Of a DNA stretch of 50,207 nt, positions 4,947 through 26,176 are shown in pieces. Position numbers and translations under genes: made by a program. The notes beneath the pieces were generated by a model, which had not been told where the DNA came from, did not search any database, and saw only the letters and a list, made by a program, of their open reading frames with translations. Numbering within the stretch: position 1 is the stretch's first letter; every line of letters starts with the position of its first letter. This DNA comes from Anaerolineae bacterium. GTDB taxonomy: Bacteria; Chloroflexota; Anaerolineae; Aggregatilineales; Phototrophicaceae. The stretch spans positions 288,044 through 338,250 of the forward strand of contig JALHNB010000002.1 of NCBI GenBank assembly GCA_022843745.1. The letters are read 5' to 3'.

Positions 4947-4957
4947 GAGACAGTGCA

Positions 4958-6730: not shown

Positions 6731-6779
6731 TTGCAATGGAATATTCCAAAGCTGCCCTTCGAATAAGGATTTGTGATTT

Positions 6780-9497: not shown

Positions 9498-9509
9498 TCA
9501 GGAAAACTG

Positions 9510-12500
9510 ATGCCTTTCAAAATCGAACCACTGGATCAACTTCTCAAACAATTTATCCAACTGGTAAAGCATGTGTTTGTCAGAGGGGAACCCGAACGCA
9601 TCCCAGTTAGTGTGGAACTCACGGACGATGAGCCTGTTGTGGCTGGGCTGGTCGAGGTAGCTGATGCTCAAAACGATTCGCCAGTGTCCAATGCAACGGC
9701 TTCAGTTGAATCTGTAGCCGAGATTGACGACGAAGCTGCTTACGCAAGCAGTGTGACTGAAACCAGCGCACCGCTCACGTCTCCTCAAGAACTTCCTCAA
9801 AGTCTAGCTGATGACTCTAACTCGGTGGCGGACACTGTGCTTTCATTGGAAACTCCTGCCACCACACCTAAACCATCCAAGAAAACTCAACAACCACGTC
9901 CCAGAATTGATCGCACTATTTTAGCGAATGCCATGCAAAAACCTCAAAGCGTAACCGAAAAACCTTCTACTTCCTTTCAATTGCTGACCACAGAACTTCG
10001 TCATCTGTTAAGTCAGTTTGATAAATCGCTCGATCCCCTGAAATTAGAAAAAATTCTGCGCGAAGCCATGTGGTATACCGATTTCATTGGTGAATTGCCA
10101 ATTGAACACAGCATGTTTGATGTCCTGACAACATGGTTGCAGCATCGCTATGTTCAGGACAACAATGGTAGACGTAAAGTGCTTATTGATCGCGTTCAGC
10201 CAGCAACCCTGGTTACTTCAATGGTGTTTTCCGCCCGTTATTCCAATGATGAGAAACGCCAGTTCTGGGATTCTTATTCACGGCAGGTTTGGGGGACAGA
10301 ACCTTCCCAGATGCTATCTAATCGAGGACGTGAGAGTTTTCGCTCGGCGGTTGAAAAACTTGAAAATGTCACCCGCATGGCATTTCCCATCATGGCTGGT
10401 GTTTTTGTGGATTATCATGTTCACCGTCATGTGCTGCTTCCGGCTTACCTGCACGATGATGTCGCCAACTGGCTAAAAAAGCATCTCCGCACGCTGGTTC
10501 AGGTTGAGCCTCGTCAGGCAGTCGCTGATTTATTGAGTGATTCCAGCATTCAGTATCTTGCGCCGCGCGTACAGGCATTTCTCAACAGTGAAACTACCCG
10601 CGACATCGCCGTGAACCTGCTCGAGCAAATGGTCGTGGCGGTGCAGCGTTTTCATGATGGAGAAACAGCGGAAGCTATTGCTGATTTGCTGATTAACCCG
10701 ATTGAACGCAGTCTGTGGAATGAACTCGCAGAATCGTTGAACCAGCAGCCGACGGTACGCCGAAATGTGCGCCGCGCCGATATACAGTGGGTATGGGCGC
10801 GGCTCGAAGATGATTGGCAGCTTCGTATTCGCAATTTCTATTCCGATCAACGTCCCGTAGAAGCGGTCTGGCGCTCATCGGAAAAAGCAACCTCTACCCT
10901 TGAAATCGTTGCCGATATTGAACCGTGGAAACGGGATGATGGTGTCTGGTACGTTGATGAAGTGTTGCTGGCTGATGGGGCACTCAAAGGTCAAGTGAGT
11001 CTGTATGCTGCTCAGAACCGAGAACTACTAACTTTGACCACTCCGCCCTTGCCCGCTGGCGATTTCATCATTTATCGCCCGACGCAACAGGAACAGTTCG
11101 CCATTCCGGTGGAATCATCGCTCGGTCTCAGTAATGGACACTGGCTTATTAGCAGCACAAGCACCGTTGAAGTTCGTGATACCAATGATCGAATTGTGAT
11201 GCCTATTCAAAGTGATATTTACATCCCTCAGCCGCTTCGTGTTGCCACAGGGCATAAACAGGCTGCCTCGTATCGTCTCGATTTCCCCGCGAAAATTCTG
11301 GTTAACGGTCAAACGTTTACTATTCCTCGACGTACTGACAGCATTGGACAACCATGGCTCACGCGTGAAAATCAAATTCAGGTGTCTCCTTCTGTGCCAC
11401 CGGCTTTCACAGATAACCGCATCATGCTCTGTTTCCCTGATCGTGCTGATGACCTGATACGATTATCACTTGTGATTCAAACCGCGGGCTTCCAACGTCG
11501 CTGGGCAATAGACGAATTGACAACCTATTTGCAAACTGTGGAGGATGGTTGTCAATTAGATTTGAGCCATGTACTACCGTTTCAAGGTGGGATTTTCACC
11601 ATAGATGTTCAGCGGGGGTTGCGTTCAGTATTGCCCGCTCCGCTTCAATGCACACTCCTACCAGACGTATCAATTATCCCACCAGACGAGTCGCGTGTTT
11701 ATTGGCAAAACGAACTGCCAACAGTCTGGATTGGGGGTATCAGTCGGGAGCAAATAGGCGACAGCCACCTTAAAGTTCTATCAGATGATGAGGGTTGGCG
11801 TATTACTTGGGATGATTTGCGGCAGTCGGATTTTCGTCTCCCTATCCGCTTCGGTGAGCAGCAAATTACGCTTGCCTGGAGGCTTAAGCGCCACTATGCC
11901 TTTCTTGATAAACTGCAAAGTGATCAGACAATCCCTGTAGAGAATTTGCCAGAGGCGACACTCACAATTTATGGTATATCTGGCGAAACGGTGGTCTTGA
12001 ATGTCAATGGAGCCATCTATACTGATCAAATTAAAGGGTATCGGCGTAATGAAGACCGTTTAATAATGCCTCTCATGCGCCATCGCTTACTTGATTTGAT
12101 CCATGAACAAAAAGTGGAAAACATCGAGCTCAGTATTCAGATGAGCGAGCATTCGTGGCAAATAGGGAGCATTTTACGTGAGAAACAGGCTACACCGTCT
12201 CTTCCAAAGCAGCAGCCTACCCGTCAACCACTTCAAATTCAGATTCAGTCTGATGAGGAAAAGATTTTCTTAAATCAACTCAATGAGCGACTCAGTGCTA
12301 TTCATCGAAGTGATGAGTGGATTTCGCAGTATGATTTACTTCCAGGCTGGGCAGTCACAGGGACCGGCTTATTGTTCTGTTATACCAGAGGCAATTACAT
12401 CTACAAACTTCCCGTCACTCCCGAGGTCTTATCACATCGTGGGCAAGAAGGTTGCGGGCATGTTTTGCTGAAGTTAGACGGATTTCGATTTGAACGTAAT

Positions 12501-13301
12501 TACGGAAAATGGGGGCGCAATATCCGCGATAAAACGGAGTTGCGCATCAAAATACCCCTTCAAGAACCCAATTCTGATAGTTCAATGGCTCAGTTGACAG
12601 ACGACGATTTAGACGAAATGTGGTGTGCTTATCAGTGCCATTATTGTGGCGAAGTTATTGGTAATCGTCTGAGCAGTCTGGCAACCTACCGTCATCAGCA
12701 ACTGCACGCGCATGAGCAATCCAACGGAGCGCAATTTAACGACCTATTTTATGGTCAACCTCTACGTGGTGACATCACTATTGAGAAGTGGAACACAATA
12801 GATAAGCCTATTATTCCATACAGCCTCTATTTTGATCCTGAATGGCATTCAGTTTGTGAACAGGCTCCAACACCTAATAAATTTCCTGAACATCCGTTGA
12901 AACTTGAAGCTTATCAGTTTGCCACACTGCGTCATGTGGTAAGACGTACCAAGTATGTTGATGAATACAACATTCTCGCGGGGCATATTGCGCTCGCCCA
13001 AGTTAGGGCAAAGATTAAATCTCACCTGAAACAGTACCCTCTGCCCATGCTATCAGCGGTTGTGCGTTTCTTGGACGCTTTATCACAAGAAACAAGTATT
13101 GATACCCAAATCGTTTCTCTTGCAGTTATTCACCGATTACACGATCTTCGAGATCCTGGCTCTCGTGATTTGGAAGAGAGCATTGGCGTTGACAAAAGAC
13201 AGAACCAGCAATTTATGCAGATGGCTATGCGGGTATGCCCTGAACTTCTACTTTGGGCATTTTCTTGGGTTGAATTGTTCTATGTTCATGCCATTGGATA
13301 G
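9510..13301 (+). CDS. large protein of unknown function, possible DruH analogue
   Basis: I do not recognise this 1263-residue protein. About 45 residues at the start look helical. They are followed by a Ser/Thr/Glu/Pro-rich linker to about residue 150 that is probably disordered. Residues 150-430 are predicted helical with many Trp and Arg. Residues 430-900 alternate hydrophobic and polar residues in a way that suggests repeated beta domains. A zinc-finger-like site C1043-x2-C1046-x15-H1062-x3-H1066 follows. There is no ATPase, nuclease or methyltransferase motif. It lies 8 bases before the giant DUF1998 helicase, which is where type III Druantia places DruH beside DruE. Similarity to DruH cannot be tested here. 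It may be a DNA-binding or scaffold subunit that works with the helicase. Confidence 0.6.
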   Translation: MPFKIEPLDQLLKQFIQLVKHVFVRGEPERIPVSVELTDDEPVVAGLVEVADAQNDSPVSNATASVESVAEIDDEAAYASSVTETSAPLTSPQELPQSLADDSNSVADTVLSLETPATTPKPSKKTQQPRPRIDRTILANAMQKPQSVTEKPSTSFQLLTTELRHLLSQFDKSLDPLKLEKILREAMWYTDFIGELPIEHSMFDVLTTWLQHRYVQDNNGRRKVLIDRVQPATLVTSMVFSARYSNDEKRQFWDSYSRQVWGTEPSQMLSNRGRESFRSAVEKLENVTRMAFPIMAGVFVDYHVHRHVLLPAYLHDDVANWLKKHLRTLVQVEPRQAVADLLSDSSIQYLAPRVQAFLNSETTRDIAVNLLEQMVVAVQRFHDGETAEAIADLLINPIERSLWNELAESLNQQPTVRRNVRRADIQWVWARLEDDWQLRIRNFYSDQRPVEAVWRSSEKATSTLEIVADIEPWKRDDGVWYVDEVLLADGALKGQVSLYAAQNRELLTLTTPPLPAGDFIIYRPTQQEQFAIPVESSLGLSNGHWLISSTSTVEVRDTNDRIVMPIQSDIYIPQPLRVATGHKQAASYRLDFPAKILVNGQTFTIPRRTDSIGQPWLTRENQIQVSPSVPPAFTDNRIMLCFPDRADDLIRLSLVIQTAGFQRRWAIDELTTYLQTVEDGCQLDLSHVLPFQGGIFTIDVQRGLRSVLPAPLQCTLLPDVSIIPPDESRVYWQNELPTVWIGGISREQIGDSHLKVLSDDEGWRITWDDLRQSDFRLPIRFGEQQITLAWRLKRHYAFLDKLQSDQTIPVENLPEATLTIYGISGETVVLNVNGAIYTDQIKGYRRNEDRLIMPLMRHRLLDLIHEQKVENIELSIQMSEHSWQIGSILREKQATPSLPKQQPTRQPLQIQIQSDEEKIFLNQLNERLSAIHRSDEWISQYDLLPGWAVTGTGLLFCYTRGNYIYKLPVTPEVLSHRGQEGCGHVLLKLDGFRFERNYGKWGRNIRDKTELRIKIPLQEPNSDSSMAQLTDDDLDEMWCAYQCHYCGEVIGNRLSSLATYRHQQLHAHEQSNGAQFNDLFYGQPLRGDITIEKWNTIDKPIIPYSLYFDPEWHSVCEQAPTPNKFPEHPLKLEAYQFATLRHVVRRTKYVDEYNILAGHIALAQVRAKIKSHLKQYPLPMLSAVVRFLDALSQETSIDTQIVSLAVIHRLHDLRDPGSRDLEESIGVDKRQNQQFMQMAMRVCPELLLWAFSWVELFYVHAIG

Positions 13302-13309
13302 GAGTAAAC

Positions 13310-16300
13310 ATGAATCCTGTTGAACTCACGTACAACTTACAAAATGCTCTAATCAATTATTTAACGACTACCTTCAATGTGAATCGAGATGGTTCAGAAG
13401 CTGAACTGGCCAGTGCCATTGAGGCTGGTTTTCGCATACCTGGCGCTCTATTTAATGGTCCACATCTCGAAATTGCGCCGCCATACAAATTAGGCGAAAC
13501 CTTGGAAAAACTCGTAGAAGAAAAAGTGCTTTCTCCAAAATTGCTTAAACTCGACTGCTTTAAGGAACGTAAACCTATCCCCATTGATGTGCCGTTATAT
13601 GCCCATCAAGAACGTGCGATCCGCAACTTGTGTGTCGAAAACCGAAGTACGGTGATTTCATCAGGCACAGGAAGTGGCAAAACTGAATGCTTCCTGATTC
13701 CAATTTTGAATGATCTCTTGATTGATCCAACACCTGGAGTACGAGCGCTCCTTATCTATCCTATGAATGCTCTTGTTAACGATCAGCTAGATCGTTTACG
13801 TGGGTTGCTAAAAGGTACAAGTATCACCTTTGGAAGATATACGAGTGAATTGGCAGAAACCCGTAAACAAGCGCTGGAGACGAATCGAAATCCATTACCA
13901 AATGAAGTTATTGCAAGAGAAGAAATCCGCAGTGGTGAAAAACTGCCGCAAATTCTGATTACCAATTATGCTATGTTGGAATATCTTCTGCTTCGGCCCG
14001 AAGATTCGAGGCTGTTTCAAAGTGGAAAATGGCGGTTCATCATCTTAGATGAGGCTCACACCTATATGGGTGCACAGGGTATTGAAGTTTCATTTTTGCT
14101 GCGCCGGCTCAAACACAGGCTGAACCGCCAATCAGGAGACACTCTCTGTATAGCAACTAGTGCAACGCTCACTACCGATGATGCAAATAAGGCAGCCGAG
14201 TTCGCACAACATCTGTTTGATGAATCCTTTTCACCCAACGATGTTATATTCGGGGAAAGTGACAATGAGTATGCCGCTAGCGGCGAAGTACAAGAGGAGC
14301 TGTCTGTAGAAGCATACGTTAATCCTGGTTTCAATGAACTCTTGTCAATGTTGCGAAGTGAAAAGCCGCTAGATACCGATGTCCTTGCTTTGAAACTTGT
14401 CGAACTAAGATTGTTGAGGGATTCGGATCTACAAGTTACTGATACCTACTCAGGGAAACCTCTACAATTTCTGTGGCATATCCTCAGTCAAAACCCACGT
14501 TTAAAAAGATTGCGTGAGTGGATGCTCGAACGTGCCGATAACCCTGCTACATTAGAGGAAGCTGCGGCTGAGATTTTTCCTGACTTGGATGAAGATGCTC
14601 GTTTGCAGGCAATCTATCATTTAACAGAACTTGGTTTTTTGACTCGCGAAGCTCCAGATAAACACTCGTTACTTCCAGCTCGCTATCATCTTTTTGCACG
14701 CCCGCCTCAAGGCGTGTGGGTATGTCTCAATGCGAACTGTTCTGGAAGACAAAGTAGTAGCCAAGAATATTGGTCCCGCTTATTTAGCACCCGCCGTGAC
14801 ACATGCGATGCGTGTGGTTGTGCTGTTTATCCTTTGTATATATGCCGTGCTTGTGGTCAGGCATATGTTCAGATGGTTAAACTCGAACGAGAGTATCTTT
14901 CCGAAGCGACTGCTTTCATGGGCGATATCGAAAAAAATTACTTTACTTGGAAACCGCTTCATCAAAAAGATGAATTATTTGAGGATTCCGACGAATTTGA
15001 ACCTATTCCGGACGATAGTAGACAAACCCCATCCTCGAATCTACATGAAAAGTTTACACTGTGTTTAAACTGCCGACATCGGCAAGATCACTGTAAGTGT
15101 AATCAACCCAGTTTTGTGGTTCTCTACCAGATGCGGGAAGAAGAGAAAACGAAAAAAGGCCAGAAAACGTTTGCAAAGTTTGTGCCCATAACGCACATGA
15201 ATCAATGTTGTCGATGCCATTCTAGCGCCCTCAAAGACACTGAAATCGTTACCCCAATCAGCCTGGCAGGTATGACACCCCTATCACTTTTGACCAATGA
15301 ACTCTATCGTCGCCTTCCTCCCTCGCCTCGTTCCGAGATGAGTAATGTCCCCGGCAATGGACGGAAACTACTAACTTTTTACGATAGTCGTCAAGGAGCT
15401 GCTCGCTTTGCCGCATTTCTCCAGGACATTGTGAATCAACAAACTTATCGGCACATTATGCCTCAGGCAGTTGAGGAGCTTCAAAAACGAAAAAGCTACT
15501 TTCCAGATTTGGAAATGCTGGCAAAACGCTGCATGGAACTAGGTGTTGAAAACGAAGTGTTTCATAATGACGCATATGATATTCGACGTGGGGCAAGGCT
15601 CACACAGTCCGAACGTGAAAGACTTACAACATCCATGTCGACACAACTCTTGGCAGAGTTTACGACACAGCGACGAGATCGCAATTCCTTAGAGAATCTT
15701 GGATTGATTGCTGTGGAGTATTTTGAGTCTGACGAAACACCTGATTTCGGAATTTTGGCGAATCAAATCGGATTTTCCGAATCTCAAACCCGGATGCTGG
15801 TTGAATACTTGCTGGACGATCTTCGCAAAGAGAAGGTTGTTATGCTACCTGAGGGTGTTGAGGCGGATAACCCAATCTTTGGGCGAAATAAGTTTTCACC
15901 GCGTGTGGTGCGGGGTAAAGCTCATGAGCATGAAGTAGCATGGATAGGCGAAACCGAACGCCACAACCGTCGCTTAAAAGTACGCGCTATTTTGCAACAC
16001 TACAAAATGCCTGCTGACGACAAAACTATTGAGCAAGTGTTGGGGGCATTATGGGACTGGCTGACCCAATCCGACATTCTTGAGGGAAACCCTACAGATG
16101 GTTATCAAATCGCTCACCAACGTTTGTTTTTCCATATAGATGCCCAATGGTACAGATGCCAAAAATGCCAGCGGCTTTCGTATAGGGGAGATTCACTACC
16201 GTGCTCTAACATCTCTTGCTTAGGAGAACTTATACCGATTGAAATCGCTTCATTGCAGGAAAATAACTTCTATTATCAAGCTCTGAACCAACCCCTCATC

Positions 16301-19141
16301 CCAATGCGGGTCGAAGAGCATACTGCTCAACTTGACTCGATCAAAGGACGTGAATATCAAGATCAGTTTCGAGATGGCAGGATTAATGTTTTAAGTTGTT
16401 CAACCACCTTCGAAATGGGAATTGACCTGGGGGACTTACAGGCAGTGGTTATGAGTAATGTGCCTCCCACTGTCGCTAATTATCGTCAGCGTGCAGGACG
16501 AGCGGGACGACGAGCCAGTGGGATAGCCTTTATATTGACCTGGGCTTCTGAGCGACCACATGATCAGACGTATTTCCGCGAACCAAGTGAAATTATCCGC
16601 GGACATATGCCAGTTCCACACATTGCGCTTGAGAATCCATTTATCTTGAAGCGTCATGTAAACGCAATCTTGATAAGTGCTTATTTACGTTACCGTTTGG
16701 AAGCAGGCCATACAAATCTCTCAAAAGTCGGAGATTTCTTTGACGCACAATCCTCACAACAACCTCACTACAGTGGAATTGAGAATTGGTTGGAGCTACG
16801 CTCAGACTACATTCGGCAGTTATTATCACAATTTGCTCAAGCCATTAACCAAGAGATGGACATCAATGAATGGTTAACAGGTTTTTGGGGCGATATGCAG
16901 CGTGTCAAGAATGATGACTACGATAAGGTTGCCAATTACTATCGACAAGAGCGCATTTCGGCTTCACATGTGAGCGCAACTTCGAATCAGGCGAGTGAAC
17001 AGCATGACGCAAGTCAAGACATTCAACGTTATATACAACTTCTGGAGCGTCTGAATAAGGAGACCTTAATCAACTACCTTAGTGATAAAGGTGTTTTGCC
17101 ATCGTATTCGTTCCCCCTCTACACAGTAGAGCTTATTCTGCCGCCAAAGAAAGATACTGAACACCTTCGTTTACAACGTGACTTACGGCAGGCGATTCGA
17201 GAATATGCACCTGGCTCAGAAGTAGTGGCTGATAAGCGAATTTGGCGAAGTGATGGGTTAATTTTCTATCGGGATACGCCCGTAATGCGAGAATATCGTA
17301 TCTGTGAACATTGCAATCATCTTCGCATCACGCTAGAAGGAATGTCCTTTGTAAACGATCAAGTAGAATGCCCAATTTGTCGGCAGCCACCAAGTAAGAA
17401 ACGCGCAAAAGCATTCAAATTTGTGACTCCTGACGGATTTCGAGCAGATTATCACAGTGGGCAGGCAGCGCGCCAATTTGTAAATATTGAACCTTCAGCG
17501 ATGCGTTCCGCATTAATCCCGCCTCAGATTCAGGAAGAGTTTCGTGTGGGGAATTTAGTTCGATACGCTTACGATCACGATGGTCAGTTATTGTACGTCA
17601 ACGAAGGAGAGTCAAGTTTCCGTTTCAAGATCTGTATGGTTTGTGGCAAACGTATCAAGAACAAGGATGGTAAATGTACAGGACGTTTTCGGGGAGAAAA
17701 GTGTCCGGGTGGACATCTTGAAGAAGTGGCATTAGGGCATGTCCAGAAAACAGACACGCTCCATTTGAGCTTTGAATCCACCGCCCATTTCTCTGTTCCC
17801 GCTGCTGACAACCAATCTTTTTGGCTGTCATTGATGTATGCATTATTGCAGGGCGCAAGCCGTGCTTTGCAGATAGAGCGTAGAGACATTGATGGAGTGT
17901 TATTGCCTAGAAGTCGCGGAACACAAACCTGGGAACAGACTATCGTGTTGTATGACAATGTTCCTGGAGGAGCTGGTCATGTTAAACGCATTCATGACCA
18001 TTTTGCTGAGGTCGTTCAAGAAGCCTTGAGAATCGTCAACTGCCTCGACTGCGCTCCAGAAACAAGCTGCTATCACTGTTTACGAGATTACAGTAATCAA
18101 CTTTACCATCATTTACTCAAGAGGGGTGATGTAGTACGTTTCTTGGAAACTATACACAAAGATTTAACGCCCTTCACCCAGTTGGATACTGTTGGTGAGG
18201 GATTTGTAATTGCTATGAATCCGCCATATTGGCTTATGCAGCAGGTAATTGCAACCCACTCCCTTATTTCATTGGCGGTTGACAGGTTAACCTTGGATCA
18301 ACCTGTTTCTTCAGGACAGACCTGGATTGATGTAATTGGAGATCTGGTAAGGCGCGGGATAGAAGTGAATCTGTTTGTACGCGAGTTAGGAAAAGATACT
18401 CCTGACGATCTGAGTATGAACCTTCAGTTACAAGTTCTGATGGATCGTGGTTTAAATCTCTGGCAAATAGAGAATTTGCCTACTTGGCAGGTAATCATAG
18501 ATGAAAAGCTACCAGAGCAACGAGCAATTCGTGTTCCATCAGGTTCACCATTTGTGTTGGCTACTGTATTAGGGGATGGTAAATTGCTATCTACCATTCA
18601 TCCAGATGGAGTAGCTAGCGCTGCTTTAGCATTTCACAAGATACCTAATCACCAAATAAAACGTGATTGGTTAAATCCACCGAAGGATACATCAGTCATC
18701 ACTGTCCAACCGCAGATACATCGCAACTATATTGAAAGGGATTTCTTTGCTGCCGTTTTTTCAAAACCAGTGGTTAGTCTACACGTAAATGATCCTTATC
18801 TGCTAACCAATGAGCAAATTGTCAATAGATTGGGTGCCTACATTAGGCTTGCTAGCGAACAAGGTAATCTCAAAAGAGTTGTGGTGGTTACTAAACGTGC
18901 GGGAGAAGCGGGCATACAAGGGGATCGAGCCGAGCAAGATCGCGCAAAACAGACTCTTATCAAACAATTCTCAAATGTAGAAGTCACCTTCAAGTATGAT
19001 CGCCCCGAACATGATCGGTACATAATTTTATATCGTGAAGACAAGAGTCGGGCACGAATATTAATCGGTAGAGGGTTGGATTTTATAAAACCGAATGGAG
19101 ATGTGCTGCCCACTTTCATTGTGGTGCAGGATCCATTTTAA
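13310..19141 (+). CDS. giant DUF1998 superfamily 2 helicase with C-terminal PLD-like domain (DruE-like)
   Basis: The 1943-residue protein has a helicase core: Walker A GTGSGKT at 119-125, DEAH at 247-250, SATLTT after it, and motif VI YRQRAGRAGRR at 1058-1068. At least six cysteine clusters (about 470-520, 585-640, 950-970, 1334-1357, 1442-1465) look like zinc ribbons. DUF1998 occupies about 1545-1610 with LYDNVPGGAGH and CLDCAPETSCYHC. The last 110 residues contain HDRYI and an IGRGLDFI motif, resembling the PLD-like C-terminal domain of MITD1 (MIT_C). Helicase plus DUF1998 at this size is the hallmark of Druantia DruE. In DISARM the same functions are split between DrmA, DrmB and the PLD protein DrmC. 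The likely role is ATP-driven engagement of foreign DNA, with the tail as a possible effector. It is the last gene of the operon. Confidence 0.85.
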   Translation: MNPVELTYNLQNALINYLTTTFNVNRDGSEAELASAIEAGFRIPGALFNGPHLEIAPPYKLGETLEKLVEEKVLSPKLLKLDCFKERKPIPIDVPLYAHQERAIRNLCVENRSTVISSGTGSGKTECFLIPILNDLLIDPTPGVRALLIYPMNALVNDQLDRLRGLLKGTSITFGRYTSELAETRKQALETNRNPLPNEVIAREEIRSGEKLPQILITNYAMLEYLLLRPEDSRLFQSGKWRFIILDEAHTYMGAQGIEVSFLLRRLKHRLNRQSGDTLCIATSATLTTDDANKAAEFAQHLFDESFSPNDVIFGESDNEYAASGEVQEELSVEAYVNPGFNELLSMLRSEKPLDTDVLALKLVELRLLRDSDLQVTDTYSGKPLQFLWHILSQNPRLKRLREWMLERADNPATLEEAAAEIFPDLDEDARLQAIYHLTELGFLTREAPDKHSLLPARYHLFARPPQGVWVCLNANCSGRQSSSQEYWSRLFSTRRDTCDACGCAVYPLYICRACGQAYVQMVKLEREYLSEATAFMGDIEKNYFTWKPLHQKDELFEDSDEFEPIPDDSRQTPSSNLHEKFTLCLNCRHRQDHCKCNQPSFVVLYQMREEEKTKKGQKTFAKFVPITHMNQCCRCHSSALKDTEIVTPISLAGMTPLSLLTNELYRRLPPSPRSEMSNVPGNGRKLLTFYDSRQGAARFAAFLQDIVNQQTYRHIMPQAVEELQKRKSYFPDLEMLAKRCMELGVENEVFHNDAYDIRRGARLTQSERERLTTSMSTQLLAEFTTQRRDRNSLENLGLIAVEYFESDETPDFGILANQIGFSESQTRMLVEYLLDDLRKEKVVMLPEGVEADNPIFGRNKFSPRVVRGKAHEHEVAWIGETERHNRRLKVRAILQHYKMPADDKTIEQVLGALWDWLTQSDILEGNPTDGYQIAHQRLFFHIDAQWYRCQKCQRLSYRGDSLPCSNISCLGELIPIEIASLQENNFYYQALNQPLIPMRVEEHTAQLDSIKGREYQDQFRDGRINVLSCSTTFEMGIDLGDLQAVVMSNVPPTVANYRQRAGRAGRRASGIAFILTWASERPHDQTYFREPSEIIRGHMPVPHIALENPFILKRHVNAILISAYLRYRLEAGHTNLSKVGDFFDAQSSQQPHYSGIENWLELRSDYIRQLLSQFAQAINQEMDINEWLTGFWGDMQRVKNDDYDKVANYYRQERISASHVSATSNQASEQHDASQDIQRYIQLLERLNKETLINYLSDKGVLPSYSFPLYTVELILPPKKDTEHLRLQRDLRQAIREYAPGSEVVADKRIWRSDGLIFYRDTPVMREYRICEHCNHLRITLEGMSFVNDQVECPICRQPPSKKRAKAFKFVTPDGFRADYHSGQAARQFVNIEPSAMRSALIPPQIQEEFRVGNLVRYAYDHDGQLLYVNEGESSFRFKICMVCGKRIKNKDGKCTGRFRGEKCPGGHLEEVALGHVQKTDTLHLSFESTAHFSVPAADNQSFWLSLMYALLQGASRALQIERRDIDGVLLPRSRGTQTWEQTIVLYDNVPGGAGHVKRIHDHFAEVVQEALRIVNCLDCAPETSCYHCLRDYSNQLYHHLLKRGDVVRFLETIHKDLTPFTQLDTVGEGFVIAMNPPYWLMQQVIATHSLISLAVDRLTLDQPVSSGQTWIDVIGDLVRRGIEVNLFVRELGKDTPDDLSMNLQLQVLMDRGLNLWQIENLPTWQVIIDEKLPEQRAIRVPSGSPFVLATVLGDGKLLSTIHPDGVASAALAFHKIPNHQIKRDWLNPPKDTSVITVQPQIHRNYIERDFFAAVFSKPVVSLHVNDPYLLTNEQIVNRLGAYIRLASEQGNLKRVVVVTKRAGEAGIQGDRAEQDRAKQTLIKQFSNVEVTFKYDRPEHDRYIILYREDKSRARILIGRGLDFIKPNGDVLPTFIVVQDPF

Positions 19142-19373: not shown

Positions 19374-20042
19374 TCAATAAAGTTCAATCATTTTTGTGAT
19401 TGTTTCAAGGGTTAATTGCATTGTCTTTAGCTGAATGAGTTTCTTTCTTGTTTTCTTTGCTTTTGCATTATCATTAGTCAAGAGACGAATCTCAGCCTCT
19501 ACTGAGATAATTTCAGCTTGAAAGTATGATTCCAATGCAGCCAAATTTTCATGTAGTTGTATGCGTCGGGATCTAATCTTTTTCATTGCCGGACGATTAA
19601 GTAATAGGACACGAATCATATAATTGGCAGGCGGCTTCAGGGATTTCAGGGTTCCGTCAAAAATAATTTCAAAATATTCTAGTCTATTATCTAAAAATGG
19701 ATCAATGTAACCGACATTACCATCAATTGATCCACCATGTGGTTGTCCATATGCGGGCCAATCATCTGCTTTTTTATTGTTGCAAACAGGGCAACAGAGA
19801 ACTAAGTTGTTAGGATCACTTGAAAGAGTTTTGTATAGAGACTGGGGGCGAAAATGATCTAGAGTCATCCTTTGATCACGGGTTTCAGGATGATAGGACA
19901 TTTCTATTTCATGGATATCACAGTAAACACATCTATATTGCGAATCTTCTCGAATTTCGTTGCGATATTTATTGTATGATTTTTTGCGTGGATAATTGTT
20001 TCTTCTTTTGAGTTGAGGAAAGAAAACCAAGTGTGAGGGCAT
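19374..20042 (-). CDS. HNH endonuclease, candidate effector of the kinase-receiver system
   Basis: This 222-residue protein has a complete HNH nuclease signature: C38-x2-C41, then L-D62-H63-FRPQS, N79, and C84-x2-C87 with CNNKK after it. The two Cys pairs would bind the structural zinc, and Asp62-His63 is the catalytic pair. The C-terminal 80 residues are helical and Lys/Glu-rich. It is the last gene of the four-gene leftward operon, 7 bases after the receiver gene. The likely function is DNA cleavage. Because it follows a kinase-like and a receiver gene with no transcription factor, I infer that its activity or access to DNA is controlled by the phosphorelay. It is not the PtuB partner of Septu, because no PtuA-type ATPase is adjacent. 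Confidence 0.82.
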   Translation of the reverse strand: MPSHLVFFPQLKRRNNYPRKKSYNKYRNEIREDSQYRCVYCDIHEIEMSYHPETRDQRMTLDHFRPQSLYKTLSSDPNNLVLCCPVCNNKKADDWPAYGQPHGGSIDGNVGYIDPFLDNRLEYFEIIFDGTLKSLKPPANYMIRVLLLNRPAMKKIRSRRIQLHENLAALESYFQAEIISVEAEIRLLTNDNAKAKKTRKKLIQLKTMQLTLETITKMIELY

Positions 20043-20049
20043 ATTTTAT

Positions 20050-20724
20050 TCAATCCTCATCTTCATCATTTAGGGTTTGTACCATTGCTTTCAACTCCTG
20101 CAATTGCTGCAAAATTTCGTCCATTCGATCTGGTTTAGTCTCTTGTAGATGCTCGTGAGCTAATGTTGAAGCAGCTCGAGAAAACTCTAGACGATCTAAC
20201 TCTTCTTGTTCTTCGCTTGAAAGTTCTTCTTTAAAGCTTTTTTTAAGTAAGTCTCTAAATCGTGTTTCTCTTTCTCCGTAAATCTTTTGATGAACATTTA
20301 TGCGTCGCAAAATTCTACTGATTATAGCCTTGCGTTTTTCATTAGTGGACAAACTGCTTTTGCTAATAATATCTTCGACGCTCCACTCGCCTTCACTATA
20401 CTCATCCATAGACGGATAATTTGTCAGTATATATATCGGAATAATTTCATCTACGGTTCGGAGGTATTGAGCCAATTCAATGCCTGTATGATCCACCCCT
20501 CCTTTATCTTCAAGTTTCTGATCAATCAAAATCGCTGCCGTTCTAGCATCTTCAAGCAGTTCTAAATAATCTTCTTTATGAGGTTTTGCAAATACATCCA
20601 CAATAGTTACACCATCGTGTTCGATAACAGCATCTAGCCCGCGCTCAAGTTGGCGGTGATACCTGTCCAATTGCGATTTGTCATTATCTATAAACCAGAT
20701 TACTTTATCCTCTTGCTCTGGCAT
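20050..20724 (-). CDS. stand-alone response-regulator receiver protein
   Basis: A 224-residue protein has a receiver-like fold over residues 1-130: acidic pair IDNDK (Asp13, Asp15), an ILIDQK strand with Asp68 as the expected phosphoacceptor, ILTNYP with Thr101, and ISKSS with Lys122. All five conserved receiver positions are filled, so phosphorylation is plausible. There is no helix-turn-helix output domain. The remainder is a charged helical region with a Glu-rich segment and a final predicted coiled coil (DEILQQLQELKAMVQ). It lies 12 bases after the kinase-like gene and 7 before the HNH gene. I infer that it carries a signal from the GHKL protein to the nuclease through protein contact. 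The start is ATG at 20724. Confidence 0.75.
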   Translation of the reverse strand: MPEQEDKVIWFIDNDKSQLDRYHRQLERGLDAVIEHDGVTIVDVFAKPHKEDYLELLEDARTAAILIDQKLEDKGGVDHTGIELAQYLRTVDEIIPIYILTNYPSMDEYSEGEWSVEDIISKSSLSTNEKRKAIISRILRRINVHQKIYGERETRFRDLLKKSFKEELSSEEQEELDRLEFSRAASTLAHEHLQETKPDRMDEILQQLQELKAMVQTLNDEDED

Positions 20725-20736
20725 ATTTTAGACATC

Positions 20737-23055
20737 CTATCTCTTAGCTTGTTTGGAAAGGATCAGGGGTATTTCGATTGTAAATTCTGCTCCTCCAAGT
20801 TCTGACTGCGATTTTACATTAATGTTGCCTTTATAAGATTCAACCACGAAATTTTGAACAATTGCTAGTCCCATGCCTGTGCCAATAACATCACCTTTTT
20901 GATTACGTTTGGTTGAGAATCCAGGCTCAAAAATCCGTTCTATTTCATAGTTTGACATGCCACAACCACTGTCCGAAAACTGAATACATATGGTCTCATC
21001 AGTTTGATATCCTATAACACGTATCCGACGCTCACGGTTGGGAATTCGCACATTATCTATTGCCCATTTTGCATTTGTAATGAGATTTATAAATATACTT
21101 TCCCAATCAATTTGAAAGACGCTCACCTTAGGTAAAGTTGATGGAAAATCCATTTCGACATCTATATTGTATATTCTTGTCAGATCCAATGCTTTAAAAA
21201 CATCGCGGGCTACTTGTTCCAAGCTCAACTCCCGACGTTTACGTTTATCGCGTTGGACACTAGCTAAGGTAAAGGACGCAAAAGTATTAATTCTTTGAGC
21301 AGATTGATCAATAGACTCTATATCTCTCAATAAAGCGTGATGCGTCTCCTGATACAAGATTGGGAACAACTCTAGTATATCGTGCTGTAATAGATCAATA
21401 CTAGTTACCACTTCATTTGCATAACCGACTGTCTCATGCCCAAATGCAGCAGCAAGAATACCTAAGGATGCTAAATTTCCCAGAGTATTTTTTTGTTCCT
21501 CATAATCTTGCTCTTGCTGCTCTGACTCTCTTATCAATTGCTCTTGGGTTTTATCTGAATGTTCCGCTACTTCCTCTAATTGTTGAATAGACTGAGTAAG
21601 CTGCTTTTGAATATCAGCTAAATTGGGTGGATTACCTGTCTTTTCACCTTCTTCAATTCGCTTGAGAACCTGTCCCCAGGTTTCTTTGACTTGGGTTGTT
21701 GCTCCGATAACGGCTTTGGAGTTGTTTTGTGCTTGTTCGCGTGTATCGTCTATTTGCCGTCTTTTCTTTTGAGAGCGCTCATAATTCTGTCTCTCGGTTT
21801 CAAAGAACTCTACAGCATTCAAAACATATCTACGCAGATCATAATACGCAGGTCCCTCCACAATACCTTCGCGATTGGTTTGATCCAATAGGTCGTCATT
21901 GCTTTCTCGAGTAATGAAAGTTGCCCCGACTACTTGGTTATAAGCGACATTCCATTTCTTAGTCATATCCCCCACACCAGCAGGGTTGGCAATGCGTCGG
22001 GCATTGAGATTTAACCAGTCACCCTCTCCTGCACCTGAAGGATCACCGTATGGTTTCACCCTGAAATCATCACGATAGATACGGATGCCCTGGTTTGAGT
22101 TCAAAAATCTTTTCACCTGACCCGTTGTGAGATCCACATTAGTTCGATCAAAGAAATACATCTGGAACTTAACAGAACCACATCGAGGTCTATCTTCGAC
22201 TTGCCTATCCCTAATAGTCTCTGACCATAGCTGATTAAAGTAAAATTCCAAACCGTTAAATGAGTTCAATTGATGGTTAATCTGTCCATCCTCAGTGAGG
22301 CTTGAGATTAGCGTCCACTCAGCAGCATCTAGATATTGGCTTGAATCGATACGCCCATCATACTCTTTCCAATCGTGAACTCCTGTAATTAACCAAATGG
22401 CAAAATCATTTATGCCGCCAAATGGAGATACCAGTAAAGACAATTCTTCAAAGAGCTTTTCGATATCGCCCTTTGTCCAGCGATCCTTTAATTGATGAAG
22501 CTCAAGTCTTGTTCCATGCTTCAAATCTATATTTATATTATTCGTTGAATCTTCTGACTGTTTTGGTATTTTGTAGATGCTGTGTTTTATTGTTTCGAGT
22601 CGTTCAGTTGCTTTATCTTCGTATTTTGTCCAATCGATATCCACCTCAACCCCAAAATCCTCATTCTCGACGAATGTCATTACCTTTGTCTGTTGAGCTA
22701 AACGATCAAGCCCTAAACGACCGAGTCCCTTTTCGCCAACTAATACTCTACTTTTGTTCTGAGATGATTTGGTCATAACCTTATTGTTTGTGCCAATAAC
22801 CATCCAGTTGTCTTGAACTTGATTAAGCGTCATTCCGATCCCATCATCTTGGATAAGCAATGATGGTTGAAATCCTTCAAGGTCAATAAATCTGATTACA
22901 ACATTTTCTGCATCAGCGTCATAAGCATTTTTTACCAGCTCAAGGATCGCCACAATAGAACTTGAAATACTCTCTCTTCCCAGTTGCATGGCAACACGAG
23001 CACTTACTGAAAAAGATGCTTCCCCCAGAATTTCGCGTTCGTGAGATTCACTCAT
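20737..23055 (-). CDS. dual GHKL ATPase: MORC/Hsp90-like N-domain plus histidine-kinase-like C-domain
   Basis: This 772-residue protein contains two separate GHKL ATP-binding domains. The first shows ELVKNAYDADA (Glu39, Asn43, Asp46), DDGIGM (70-75) and GEKGLGRLG (107-115), as in Hsp90, MutL and MORC proteins. A long middle region follows, ending in a Gln/Glu-rich coiled coil at about 440-520. The second is kinase-like: a possible dimerisation helix with LAAAFGHETVGYANE, where His540 is the candidate phosphorylated residue, then NLITNAKWAI, FSDSGCGMS and GTGMGLAIV. No signal peptide or membrane segment is seen, so it is cytoplasmic. It overlaps the methyltransferase stop by four bases and precedes a receiver gene. 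Prokaryotic MORC-like ATPases are known near restriction-modification genes. A sensor clamp that phosphorylates the receiver is my inference. Confidence 0.8.
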   Translation of the reverse strand: MSESHEREILGEASFSVSARVAMQLGRESISSSIVAILELVKNAYDADAENVVIRFIDLEGFQPSLLIQDDGIGMTLNQVQDNWMVIGTNNKVMTKSSQNKSRVLVGEKGLGRLGLDRLAQQTKVMTFVENEDFGVEVDIDWTKYEDKATERLETIKHSIYKIPKQSEDSTNNINIDLKHGTRLELHQLKDRWTKGDIEKLFEELSLLVSPFGGINDFAIWLITGVHDWKEYDGRIDSSQYLDAAEWTLISSLTEDGQINHQLNSFNGLEFYFNQLWSETIRDRQVEDRPRCGSVKFQMYFFDRTNVDLTTGQVKRFLNSNQGIRIYRDDFRVKPYGDPSGAGEGDWLNLNARRIANPAGVGDMTKKWNVAYNQVVGATFITRESNDDLLDQTNREGIVEGPAYYDLRRYVLNAVEFFETERQNYERSQKKRRQIDDTREQAQNNSKAVIGATTQVKETWGQVLKRIEEGEKTGNPPNLADIQKQLTQSIQQLEEVAEHSDKTQEQLIRESEQQEQDYEEQKNTLGNLASLGILAAAFGHETVGYANEVVTSIDLLQHDILELFPILYQETHHALLRDIESIDQSAQRINTFASFTLASVQRDKRKRRELSLEQVARDVFKALDLTRIYNIDVEMDFPSTLPKVSVFQIDWESIFINLITNAKWAIDNVRIPNRERRIRVIGYQTDETICIQFSDSGCGMSNYEIERIFEPGFSTKRNQKGDVIGTGMGLAIVQNFVVESYKGNINVKSQSELGGAEFTIEIPLILSKQAKR

Positions 23056-25058
23056 AGGTATCCATTTTCTTTCCGCTGGAGAACTTCTTTTACCCTATGT
23101 AGGTGTTTCACGCTTAGACCTAGAGCTTGAAAAATATATTCATTCATCTCTTGAATTATCTTCTCGCGTGGACCTGATGGTATCGAAGCTTCTTGAGCAA
23201 AATGAGATATCAAGGGAAGTAAATCTTCCCGTAGCGGAAGTAGCTTTAATTCATAAATTGAAACCTGTGTTGTGCCGTTTCTCAACTGGAATATAAAATT
23301 AATCAAATCGCTATTGAGCCAAGCAAGAAGCCCATACAGGCTCGTAGACAAACTATCTGATTGCGAAATATAGTTTACATGGTTCTCTAAAAAAACCCGG
23401 GGATACTTGGTCAAAAACGTTTCATCAGGTATGGCACAAACTAATCTACGCCCTACTTTTCGGGGAGTGGTTCGTTGTATAAGGATCATAGTCCCTGTTT
23501 TAATTAACGGGGATACTTTTTGTGTAATCAGGGAAAAGGGTCGTTCCTTCGATGAATGAGACCCTCGATAGGGAAATTCAAAATCAAAAGATGAAATTGA
23601 AGCAGCAGATACTAGTGGAATGTGGTCTACTTGCTCATTGAAAGAGAGCAATTCCTTATTCTGATTCCAAACATACCCCCCGTTGCCCAGATGAAAGCAG
23701 TTTAAATCCCCAAGGTATTTTGTGTTTTGTTGTAGTGCTTCTTCTATTTCGTAATCTATTTTGCTTTCGGAAACTACCCAGATAATAGATGAATCCAGCT
23801 TTCGGACAATCTTCTCAGGAGATACTGTAAAGGGTATTGCCTCACGAATATCAGTTCCGTTTCGTGTTACACGAAGTACAACATTATTCCCTTTATTCTG
23901 TTTTGTTCCTACACGTAGACACACAGTCATCATTTGTTGATCGGCAGTTCCGACAACCCCTTTTCGATCAATTAGACGTGTTATGTCAACGAGAGTAGTA
24001 GTTTCATTTAGGTGATATCTCAGCCGTTGAAAGTAATTTCCGATCAGCATTGACTGAGGCAGTAGTAGAGAAATGATGCCACCTTTTTTCGAAGCTTTAA
24101 CAGCCCACCATAAAAACAATATGTATAGATTAGGGTGTCCATAAATTACTTCATCATATGCTTCAATAAAATCCAGCGAAACTCGCTTAACCGACATGAA
24201 AGGTGGGTTGCCGATTACATAGGAGTATATTGGTTTAGTCCAGAATCGATCAAAATTCTTCAACGGATCAATTAGCTCAATATTTGAAAGCAATTCACTT
24301 GCATCATCAGATGCATGTATATAAGGTGAAATTATAGATAGGAGTATTGTCCTGCACAGCGTAATTGCAAATGGCTGAATATCGAAGCCATGCAGCTGAT
24401 GATTTATTGCATTTATAATTGACTGATTAGTATAACTACTTTGGATCGCATATTGGATAACCTTGCTGGCTATAGAGGCGAGAATCATCCCACCTCCGCA
24501 GGCAGGATCAACTATATGATTGCCTTGAAGAAACTTTTCCGGGCTAAATTTGGCTGATTTGATCAGGTGATTTACGATACTGGGCGGCGTATAAAATTCA
24601 CCAATATATCGTTTTTCGGTTTTTGTTAACAATTGATCGCAAAGATCAATAAGTGTGATTTGTGGGGAGTTGAGAGTCCCTAATTGGTTTGCAATTTCAC
24701 AAATCGCGTTGTGTTCTTCTGCTGAGATGTCATACCATGAATACAGAGAATCTTCCGATTCGACAGGCCAACAGAAAGAACGGTGTATATTTTGATCCAC
24801 TATCGTTCTAAGAATTTCTGTCGCAACATGAAGAATCGCGGTTTCTTTAAGAAAACGTATGGTTAAGTCATCTTCAGAGATCTGAGTACCTTGGTGATGA
24901 TCATATCGCCTGAGATAGGAATGCTGTGTCTCTATATATTGCGCCAGATTTTTCTTTGCCAATGTGCTGGTATTGTACTGTGTGCTGGTATCGATTAGAA
25001 CACGCGCTACAATCTTATCAAGATAATCCATCAAATCGCTAAAGTTCCTGTTTATCAT
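23052..25058 (-). CDS. Eco57I-like adenine-specific DNA methyltransferase
   Basis: This 668-residue protein has gamma-class motif order: GEFYTP (about 155), AdoMet-binding DPACGGG at 184-190, and catalytic NPPF at 284-287. A GGIISLLLPQSML segment follows, and a C-terminal half is likely to carry target recognition. This resembles Eco57I and other type IIG/BREX-like N6-adenine methyltransferases. I see no PD-(D/E)XK nuclease motif in the N-terminal 150 residues, so it is probably a methylase only. It opens the leftward operon and overlaps the kinase-like gene by four bases. It probably marks host DNA so that the nuclease or sensor downstream can tell self from foreign. Its DNA, like the rest of this operon, is richer in A+T than the plasmid-like block next to it. 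Confidence 0.85.
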   Translation of the reverse strand: MINRNFSDLMDYLDKIVARVLIDTSTQYNTSTLAKKNLAQYIETQHSYLRRYDHHQGTQISEDDLTIRFLKETAILHVATEILRTIVDQNIHRSFCWPVESEDSLYSWYDISAEEHNAICEIANQLGTLNSPQITLIDLCDQLLTKTEKRYIGEFYTPPSIVNHLIKSAKFSPEKFLQGNHIVDPACGGGMILASIASKVIQYAIQSSYTNQSIINAINHQLHGFDIQPFAITLCRTILLSIISPYIHASDDASELLSNIELIDPLKNFDRFWTKPIYSYVIGNPPFMSVKRVSLDFIEAYDEVIYGHPNLYILFLWWAVKASKKGGIISLLLPQSMLIGNYFQRLRYHLNETTTLVDITRLIDRKGVVGTADQQMMTVCLRVGTKQNKGNNVVLRVTRNGTDIREAIPFTVSPEKIVRKLDSSIIWVVSESKIDYEIEEALQQNTKYLGDLNCFHLGNGGYVWNQNKELLSFNEQVDHIPLVSAASISSFDFEFPYRGSHSSKERPFSLITQKVSPLIKTGTMILIQRTTPRKVGRRLVCAIPDETFLTKYPRVFLENHVNYISQSDSLSTSLYGLLAWLNSDLINFIFQLRNGTTQVSIYELKLLPLREDLLPLISHFAQEASIPSGPREKIIQEMNEYIFQALGLSVKHLHRVKEVLQRKENGYL

Positions 25059-25285: not shown

Positions 25286-26176
25286 TCATGCGGTACAGCC
25301 ATAGACTTTGTTCAGTTCCTTGTGCGCGTTTCGCCGCAGCATATGGATGGTATATTTCGATAACCCCAGCCGGTCAACCAGCGTCTTGCAGCTTTCGTAG
25401 GCTCCCATGCTCTGCACCGTCGCTGCCATGCGGAGATTGCCTTCCGCCTCGTATCGGGCGACCAGGCGCAGCAGCGGTGCTTCCACTCCGATAAGATGCC
25501 GATCCCGCCATGTTTGTTGGCGCGGTTTGAACAGTTCCAGTTTCTCGCATAACTCCTCCCGCATCGGTTTGACCACACTCGTCAGCCACCAGCACTTCTT
25601 CGTGCCACTGCGTCCGGCGATGGCTGCCGCGTCGTCCGGTCCGACTTCGGTGATGATGTAGTATAACGCTGCCAGGTGAGGCAGGCTGTCCATGTACTTC
25701 TTCGCCATCTCAGTAATGACCTTCTCAATGTCAATGCGGAGTTCAATGGCTTCGGCGTAGGTCGCGTGACCAATGATGTGAGAATGATCGAAACCGTCGA
25801 TGATGAAGTCGTCAGGATCACCACTGCGCGTAGCGATGTCTTCCAGATACATCTCGCGGCGGTAGAACTTGCGGTAAAGCTGGGGATTCGTACGGTTCAG
25901 CAGCAGCTTGAGCGCTCCACCTTTGTCCACTGCTGCCAGCATGGATATATCGGCGCTGATGTCCATCCACAGCCGCATGAAAGCGTGAGCAATCAAGTCG
26001 GGGATGTCCAATTCATGGTTGCGATAGTAGCGCAGTAGCCGGTTAAAGCTGGGGATCAGATCATAGTAAATCTGCTCAAAAGTGCGCTGACCTGCCCACC
26101 CTGTCGGATAGGTTGCAACACGTGGAAAAGGACGAATCTTGGCGCGAATAGTGGAACGAACATTATTGTCGATCAT
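25286..26176 (-). CDS. sigma-70-like DNA-binding protein, element-encoded
   Basis: This 296-residue protein has an N-terminal helix pattern (F..IYYDLIPSFNRLLRYYR, then DIPDLIAHAFMRLW) like sigma region 2, and a C-terminal VDRLGLSKYTIHMLRR..HKEL helix-turn-helix like region 4. The middle (about 90-240) is not recognised. The start is ATG at 26176, after AGGAGGGA. The likely role is control of transfer or replication genes of the element, or a phage-type accessory sigma factor. It sits alone at the junction between the A+T-rich defence operon and the plasmid block and has a hairpin after its stop. An unrelated DNA-binding protein remains possible because the region 2 match is partial. Confidence 0.5.
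   Translation of the reverse strand: MIDNNVRSTIRAKIRPFPRVATYPTGWAGQRTFEQIYYDLIPSFNRLLRYYRNHELDIPDLIAHAFMRLWMDISADISMLAAVDKGGALKLLLNRTNPQLYRKFYRREMYLEDIATRSGDPDDFIIDGFDHSHIIGHATYAEAIELRIDIEKVITEMAKKYMDSLPHLAALYYIITEVGPDDAAAIAGRSGTKKCWWLTSVVKPMREELCEKLELFKPRQQTWRDRHLIGVEAPLLRLVARYEAEGNLRMAATVQSMGAYESCKTLVDRLGLSKYTIHMLRRNAHKELNKVYGCTA

Follow-up and report, generated by a model that had tools for sequence, protein, structure and literature searches.

The gene at positions 20737-23055 of a 50,207-nucleotide stretch of DNA from an Anaerolineae bacterium (assembly GCA_022843745.1, contig JALHNB010000002.1), which is called here the window, encodes a 772-residue sensor kinase with two different GHKL ATPase domains. 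The gene is located in a compact operon with the order N6 methylase, dual-GHKL kinase, receiver protein and PtuB-like HNH nuclease, in which the methylase stop and the kinase start overlap by 4 bp, the kinase and receiver genes are separated by 12 bp and the receiver and HNH genes by 7 bp. All the features of the operon described below are encoded on the minus strand.

Results

Domains and conserved residues of the dual-GHKL kinase

A first-pass annotation of this open reading frame (ORF), whose limits and residue numbers (Asn43, DDGIGM 70-75, GEKGLGRLG 107-115 and His540) are correct, had described an N-domain with MORC/Hsp90-type GHKL motifs and a C-domain with histidine-kinase motifs and His540 as a candidate. 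Profile searches of both halves with Pfam have revealed two ATPase domains above their cut-offs, HATPase_c_3 at residues 33-162 (positions 22570-22959; E value 1.2e-20, 74.4 bits versus a cut-off of 25) and HATPase_c at residues 652-764 (positions 20764-21102; E value 9.3e-23, 81.2 bits versus a cut-off of 26.4), the latter with the N box NLITNA and the G boxes DSGCG and GTGMG. Both descriptions were borne out by these matches and by the conservation and structure comparisons given below; the N-domain has its ATP-binding residues and the C-half has a helix of the dimerization/phosphoacceptor kind. No match to HisKA or HEF_HK was found by Pfam in the kinase even at an E value of 10, and no membrane-like stretch is present, the highest 19-residue Kyte-Doolittle mean being 1.49.

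Conservation was determined in relatives gathered from plasmids, genomes of the phylum of the window and viral contigs. The larger set that was scanned consisted of 123 loci, with 106 full-length dual-GHKL proteins, 15 partial matches and 2 loci without any, and the 107 sequences obtained by including the window were reduced to 100 (99 without the window) by dropping those at least 90% identical. Discarded before the first conservation count were L010 (kinase annotated as three coding sequences), the fragments L051 and L054, L074 (protein identical to that of L059) and nine loci with a MORC-type N-domain protein but no kinase half. The sequences retrieved by a pattern spanning K42-A49 were 67 of the 100, and therefore the count for Asn43 is biased in those 67, whereas the pattern does not cover Glu39, His540 or Asn657. 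A scan of genome contigs with the window protein returned a single locus (L001), in which the kinase half alone was matched, and this locus was not used.

In the N-domain, D70, G72, G74, G107, K109, G110, G112 and R113 are each conserved in 100/100 sequences, and Glu39 and Asn43 in 99/100 each, one row being gapped at each position. These two residues form the element Glu39-x3-Asn43 (positions 22927-22941), the putative general base and the Mg/ATP-binding Asn of the domain, a role of the Glu that is known from GyrB, MutL and Hsp90. The gapped row is presumably L014, a Salipiger kinase that lacks a normal start and lies beside IS66; another broken copy is the L010 kinase, from a Klebsiella variicola plasmid. 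The middle S5/transducer-like domain (residues 181-400, positions 21856-22515), which is covered by a structure match to MORC3/Hsp90 that extends to about residues 426-431, contains Arg395 in the sequence TNREG; this residue is invariant (100/100) and is a candidate ATP-sensor residue.

A long helix (residues 402-473, positions 21637-21852) connects the predicted clamp to the kinase in the AlphaFold model, followed by DHp-like helices at residues 479-563 and 569-599 (positions 21259-21621), which are supported both by the model and by profile alignment to the DHp domains of solved kinases. The predicted phospho-acceptor His540 (positions 21436-21438) sits inside the long predicted helix 479-563, is present in 100/100 sequences and is followed by Glu or Asp in 94/100, and in the alignment made with the family profile its column coincides with the His-Glu of ThkA, ZraS and FixL, which are solved kinases. 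The distance between Arg395 and His540 is 145 residues in the window and ranges from 100 to 309 (median 112) over the 100 sequences. In the C-domain, Asn657, Asn661, Gly727 and Gly729 are found in 100/100 sequences, Gly725 in 98/100 and Asp695 in 94/100. With a predicted phospho-His in the DHp helix and the N and G boxes, the histidine-kinase core is complete.

The two GHKL modules have distinct signatures, since Asn657 occupies in the C-domain the place at which the N-domain has Glu39, and in both domains three residues separate this place from the next Asn. At that GHKL position Glu marks ATP-hydrolysing proteins and Asn marks kinases; by this criterion the N-half resembles a hydrolysing switch and the C-half a kinase.

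The structure of the kinase was modelled with AlphaFold from an alignment of 64 sequences (the window and 63 of the 70 non-redundant viral-contig kinases), with a mean predicted local distance difference test score (pLDDT) of 86.9 and a predicted template-modelling score of 0.78. Comparison of residues 16-426 with VIA-align gave MORC3 (Z 22.9, root-mean-square deviation 3.8, 311 residues aligned), the Hsp90 protein Hsc82 (Z 21.0) and SMCHD1 (Z 20.0), and topoisomerase VI-B was also matched, while residues 521-768 matched ZraS, FixL chimeras and HK853 (Z 19.3-21.2). The window kinase thus presents both the N-terminal GHKL motifs and the S5-like domain, as in MORC/paraMORC ATPases. Profile, structure and conservation all support the presence, in a single chain, of a clamp module of the MORC/Hsp90 type together with a complete histidine-kinase core.

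Partners of the kinase in the operon

The first gene of the operon (positions 23052-25058) encodes a 668-residue DNA methylase of the N6-adenine type, as indicated by Pfam (Eco57I, 1.9e-13; N6_Mtase, 6e-11), PADLOC (MTase_II, 2.4e-72) and the motifs DPACGGG (residues 184-190) and NPPF (residues 284-287). A TaqI_C-like specificity region may be present at residues 555-609, where the Pfam match is weak (0.005, under the cut-off).

The gene downstream of the kinase (positions 20050-20724) encodes a 224-residue protein composed of a REC domain and about 95 residues of helices. The Pfam match to Response_reg (PF00072) is weak (1.4e-4, under the cut-off), the family profile finds PhoP in the PDB at 3.9e-7, and the AlphaFold model (pLDDT 79.8) displays a REC fold followed by helices 128-165, 170-194 and 199-223. 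A Foldseek search with this model gave modest matches to response regulators, with a best E value of 1.4e-4 and a poor root-mean-square deviation over the tail. No DNA-binding output domain was recognized in this receiver by Pfam or in the model. Asp68 (positions 20521-20523), the predicted phospho-acceptor, is kept in the 20 receivers of alignment A6 (20/20).

The last gene (positions 19374-20042) codes for a 222-residue PtuB-like HNH nuclease, the candidate effector (Pfam HNH, 2.2e-7; PADLOC PtuB1, 2.6e-15). The closest solved chains are those of the PtuB from retron I-A/Ec78, at about 6e-6 with a profile of 21 rows, 3 of which are not HNH. The HNH motif is intact, with His63, Asn79 and Asn88 present in 18/18 proteins, and no sequence-recognition domain was matched by Pfam in the protein. 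In one HNH relative (L154:9367-9981) one Cys of each CxxC pair is replaced, the His and Asn being kept. The operon has a trait of Type II restriction-modification, in that its methylase carries the catalytic motifs and is linked to a gene for a nuclease. The methylase and HNH genes, which lie outside the first-pass annotation, are the best clue to the function of the kinase.

Downstream genes, effectors and methylases in the relatives

An adjacent downstream gene on the same strand was found in 94 of the 99 non-redundant relatives, with an overlap between the two genes in 54 of these 94 when longest-ORF starts are taken; L069, which had no such gene by the ORF rule, has one annotated in its record. 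The column of Asp68 is at least 90% conserved over 95 downstream proteins. Pfam assigned Response_reg to 18 of these proteins and Response_reg_2 to 2, and a receiver profile derived from the branch itself matched 45/94 after iteration. Matches G094 and G371 were left out of the flank comparison.

The effector types among the 100 loci were HNH (18), metallo-beta-lactamase (9), caspase-like candidate (3), longer receiver of at least 300 residues (64) and unassigned (6). In a quick maximum-likelihood tree of the kinases, the HNH rows including the window are gathered in one set of 19 rows (support 97), composed of 18 HNH loci and one locus cut at the contig end, while the 9 metallo-beta-lactamase rows form one clade (support 100) and the 3 caspase-like candidates another (support 99), so the effector class changes by kinase clade. 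The rows closest to the window are the viral-contig relatives L077-L083, each with the arrangement methylase-kinase-receiver-HNH where it was counted. The caspase-like candidates (L066:9785-10465, L142:8906-9559 and L155:8688-9293) carry an HG...SC motif in the effector slot, which is the basis of this reading, and Pfam gave nothing useful on the three proteins. The long receivers (about 340-470 residues; for example L017:10174-11196 and L090:8120-9469) have a C-terminal region matching no known family, in which a CD motif (xPxCD or AxCDxAQ) is conserved.

A DNA methylase gene was found near the kinase in 87/99 loci versus 1/20 control loci, the controls being other kinase loci, namely the 20 with the highest scores among 61 further matches in the genome of the window. 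The 87 loci comprise 78 detected by profile and 9 of 10 further genes by Pfam (the match at L136 being weak), the tenth being a phage portal. The methylases vary among loci and are of N6, N4/N6 or C5 type. Of the 12 loci in which no methylase was found, L085 and L094 are cut just past the kinase, and L059 and L070 carry the DNA phosphorothioation genes SspABCD instead.

Kinase-receiver pairs beside phosphorothioation genes

A full SspABCD cassette lies beside the kinase-receiver pair in 4 of the 9 loci of one sub-branch: L059 (a Candidatus Chlorohelix plasmid), L070/L178 (Rhizorhabdus wittichii pSWIT01), L184 (Ensifer adhaerens pC) and L187 (another genome of the phylum); record H85, with the same length and match as H84, was left out of this comparison. 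PADLOC identified SspA, SspB, SspC and SspD at L059 with E values from 9e-107 to 0, and SspA and SspB at L070; SspC and SspD at L178 were assigned by similarity to L059 and annotation, and the SspABCD proteins of L184 and L187 by similarity to L059. The kinase and receiver genes are placed between sspC and sspD in L059 and L187. The chemistry of the mark thus differs in these loci, and the association of the pair with DNA marking is preserved. At L182, L183, L185 and L186, where the stretch examined contains no Ssp genes, hypothetical genes and a gene with an FtsK/SpoIIIE domain are found nearby.

Surroundings of the operon

The operon of the window sits in a defence island, as judged by Pfam and PADLOC. 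A convergent defence operon on the plus strand (window 2001-19141) includes a ResIII helicase, GmrSD, a type III-like methylase, a 1263-residue protein that fits no clear family and a helicase resembling DruE, which carries MZB and, at its C-terminus, a PLD-like (MIT_C) domain; DruH was not among the PADLOC matches listed for this operon, in a scan covering its proteins from the third onward. Upstream of the kinase operon, a 296-residue protein (window 25286-26176, minus strand) has a very weak match to sigma-70 region 2 (E 0.08) and is a possible regulator. Promoter-like sites were no more frequent than expected by chance (19 found, 17.3 expected), and terminator-like sites (11 found, 6.1 expected) were not used.

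Discussion

Relation to known systems

The combination of two GHKL domains in one protein is not new, as it was published in 2021 for the HEF_HK proteins, in which 174 of 222 sequences had the three-part architecture HATPase_c_3, DHp-like region and HATPase_c, and linkage of such kinases to receivers and restriction-modification genes was also reported, the authors suggesting a signalling that controls restriction-modification (Bellieny-Rabelo et al., PMC8011034). The window pair resembles the HEF_HK/Response_reg_2 pairs (PF19191, PF19192) in having a soluble three-part kinase, an adjoining receiver gene and restriction-modification genes around. The neighbourhoods stressed in the parts of that paper considered here contain a C5 methylase and Vsr, unlike that of the window, where the methylase is of the N6 type and an HNH protein resembling PtuB is encoded. 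Membership of the published Pfam families was rejected for the window, since the kinase gives no PF19191 match at the E value cited above and the receiver no PF19192 match; at a threshold of 0.01, HEF_HK matches 1 of the 64 kinases used for the structure model, and the PF19192 matches are the two Response_reg_2 proteins mentioned above. The branch of the window lies outside both Pfam models and combines an N6 methylase with a PtuB-like HNH protein, and its exchange of effectors and marks is something we have not seen described.

BbrUII and HgiDII are active enzymes. Restriction enzymes of this type and paraMORC proteins share with the window kinase an N-terminal GHKL plus S5-like domain and restriction-modification neighbourhoods, and paraMORC1 may co-occur with HNH proteins (Iyer et al. 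2008, PMC2292703; NCBIfam NF050001). The cis extensions described in that source, as far as it is considered here, are nuclease, TIR or unassigned domains, whereas the window protein has a histidine kinase in cis and the nuclease in trans. The BbrUII/HgiDII model matches residues 15-201 at 1.8e-24, far under the model cut-off, which indicates a shared domain only.

The HNH protein is close to PtuB of the Septu and retron I-A PtuAB systems, from which the operon differs in that a kinase and a receiver stand in place of the PtuA-type ATPase. Pfam revealed no AAA ATPase in the methylase, kinase or receiver, and among the PADLOC matches listed (for the methylase, the best 25 of 45) PtuA1 models appear only on the HNH protein, at residues 15-204 and 25-192. 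In retron-Eco7, PtuAB brings about, directly or indirectly, the loss of tRNA-Tyr, and Septu PtuAB is known for DNA degradation (PMC11555353), so the target of the HNH protein could be DNA or RNA. The legend of a figure of predicted systems from DefensePredictor names HATPase and REC (PMC13092281), and an overlap with the present system is possible. No published system composed of methylase, kinase, receiver and HNH nuclease was found in literature searches.

Detocs reportedly uses a kinase/receiver pair to drive a defence effector, with the gene set DtcA/B/C, and in this the window pair and its effector would resemble it. We know of no MORC module or methylase in Detocs, and the gene content of the window (methylase, MORC-kinase, receiver and HNH) differs from that gene set.

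A proposed phosphorelay-gated restriction system

We consider it probable that the dual-GHKL protein is the sensor of a four-gene system of restriction, or abortive infection, gated by a phosphorelay. The methylase would mark the host DNA, and the N-terminal MORC/Hsp90-type module would close on DNA, most likely unmarked DNA, as a dimer clamp driven by ATP. Closure of the clamp would be transmitted through the long helices (residues 402-563) as far as the DHp region; there His540 would be phosphorylated by the C-terminal kinase domain and would then hand the phosphate to Asp68 of the receiver. The phosphorylated receiver would activate or release the adjoining PtuB-like HNH nuclease, which would cut nucleic acid, either phage DNA or host RNA as proposed for some PtuAB, and the signal would thus run from the DNA mark to an anti-phage nuclease. 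In favour of this reading are the two domains with their division of labour, the REC features of the downstream proteins, the frequency of methylase genes near the kinase compared with the control loci, the effector classes that follow the kinase clades, the N-module shared with the BbrUII/HgiDII model and the setting of the window copy in a defence island. The first-pass annotation had suggested that DNA clamping could be reported as phosphorylation; the presence of both modules in one chain stands, and the neighbouring receiver with its phospho-Asp in place, which that annotation lacked, offers a plausible recipient; the clamping of DNA itself is putative, the model being that of a monomer.

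The best indirect argument that the pair reads a DNA mark is that it is kept both with methylation and with phosphorothioation. A broader proposal, which we advance as possible and with less assurance, is that mark reading and cutting are split in this family by a His-Asp phosphorelay, in which the MORC clamp would sense unmarked DNA and the receiver would signal to an effector that can be exchanged (HNH, caspase-like, metallo-beta-lactamase fold or longer receiver), the marking chemistry being exchangeable as well (N6, N4 or C5 methylation, or phosphorothioation by SspABCD).

Several observations weigh against this interpretation. The kinase model is that of a monomer; Hsp90 is nearly as close as MORC3 to the N-half, so the ligand may be a protein; and structural alignments to HK853 leave His540 3-4 residues off its phospho-His, unlike the sequence alignment. 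Pfam sees REC in at most 20/95 downstream proteins, a motif scan that scored 91/94 as REC-like had no null and was not taken as proof, and the receiver Lys is kept in 16/20 proteins, being Ala in three rows of the metallo-beta-lactamase branch and Phe in L156. No methylase was found in 12/99 loci (L016, L047, L059, L064, L070, L072, L085, L086, L094, L095, L104 and L123), and SspABCD was not in the stretch examined at 5/9 loci of the sub-branch (L072, L182, L183, L185 and L186). Some of the loci counted had also served to build the HNH and methylase profiles; the methylase seeds were 19 N6 and 6 C5 loci among the 99, and a profile match was found in 53 of the other 74. The literature searches yielded neither phage nor biochemical data on any member of the family.

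Three other explanations have been considered. The pair could be an ordinary two-component regulator of the restriction-modification locus, in which the kinase would sense a nucleotide or stress and the receiver would alter the expression of the methylase and nuclease genes; this would agree with a kinase core and a receiver that are both complete and with the signalling control of restriction-modification speculated upon in 2021 (PMC8011034). We find it quite unlikely, because the window receiver consists of REC and helices alone, without a recognized output domain, and shares its operon with one nuclease gene, and because the effector classes track the kinase clades. The direct fusion of a GHKL module to a nuclease in VcSduA/paraMORC3 (PMC12137116), the match of the BbrUII/HgiDII model to the N-module and the lack of a HisKA match by Pfam would instead suit a restriction machine powered only by the clamp, the C-half being a dimerization region or a second ATP switch with no phosphate transfer and the receiver a phosphorylation-independent adaptor of the nuclease. 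This is unlikely in view of the invariance of His540, the acidic residue next to it, the kinase-type Asn657 and the conserved Asp68 of the receivers.

The near tie of Hsp90 with MORC3 in the structure comparison would also be explained if the N-half were Hsp90-like and sensed either a phage protein or the level of nucleotide, with a methylase separate in function and with the kinase, receiver and nuclease forming an abortive-infection system like Detocs, a three-gene defensive two-component system whose best-described effector is an ATP-cleaving PNP (PMC11249213). We judge this improbable, since a methylase is found near the pair in 87/99 loci, SspABCD takes its place in 2 of the other 12, and the methylase gene of the window overlaps that of the kinase.

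Implications

If the phosphorelay-gated restriction proposed here is correct, it would connect the study of MORC clamps with those of restriction and of two-component signalling, through one sensor that is combined with different DNA marks and with different effectors. Whether a MORC-type ATPase reads DNA modification, and by what route the reading becomes an output, could then be tested in a bacterium by a phosphorylation readout. The pairs found beside full SspABCD cassettes, in contrast to the window kinase, which adjoins a methylase, could act as restriction partners replacing SspE or SspFGH. As 2,211 of 2,678 sspBCD cassettes were reported without a known restriction partner (PMC8092258), the kinase-receiver pair could supply one missing partner of these orphan cassettes, and is a candidate answer to the remark made in that source that most of them lack one.

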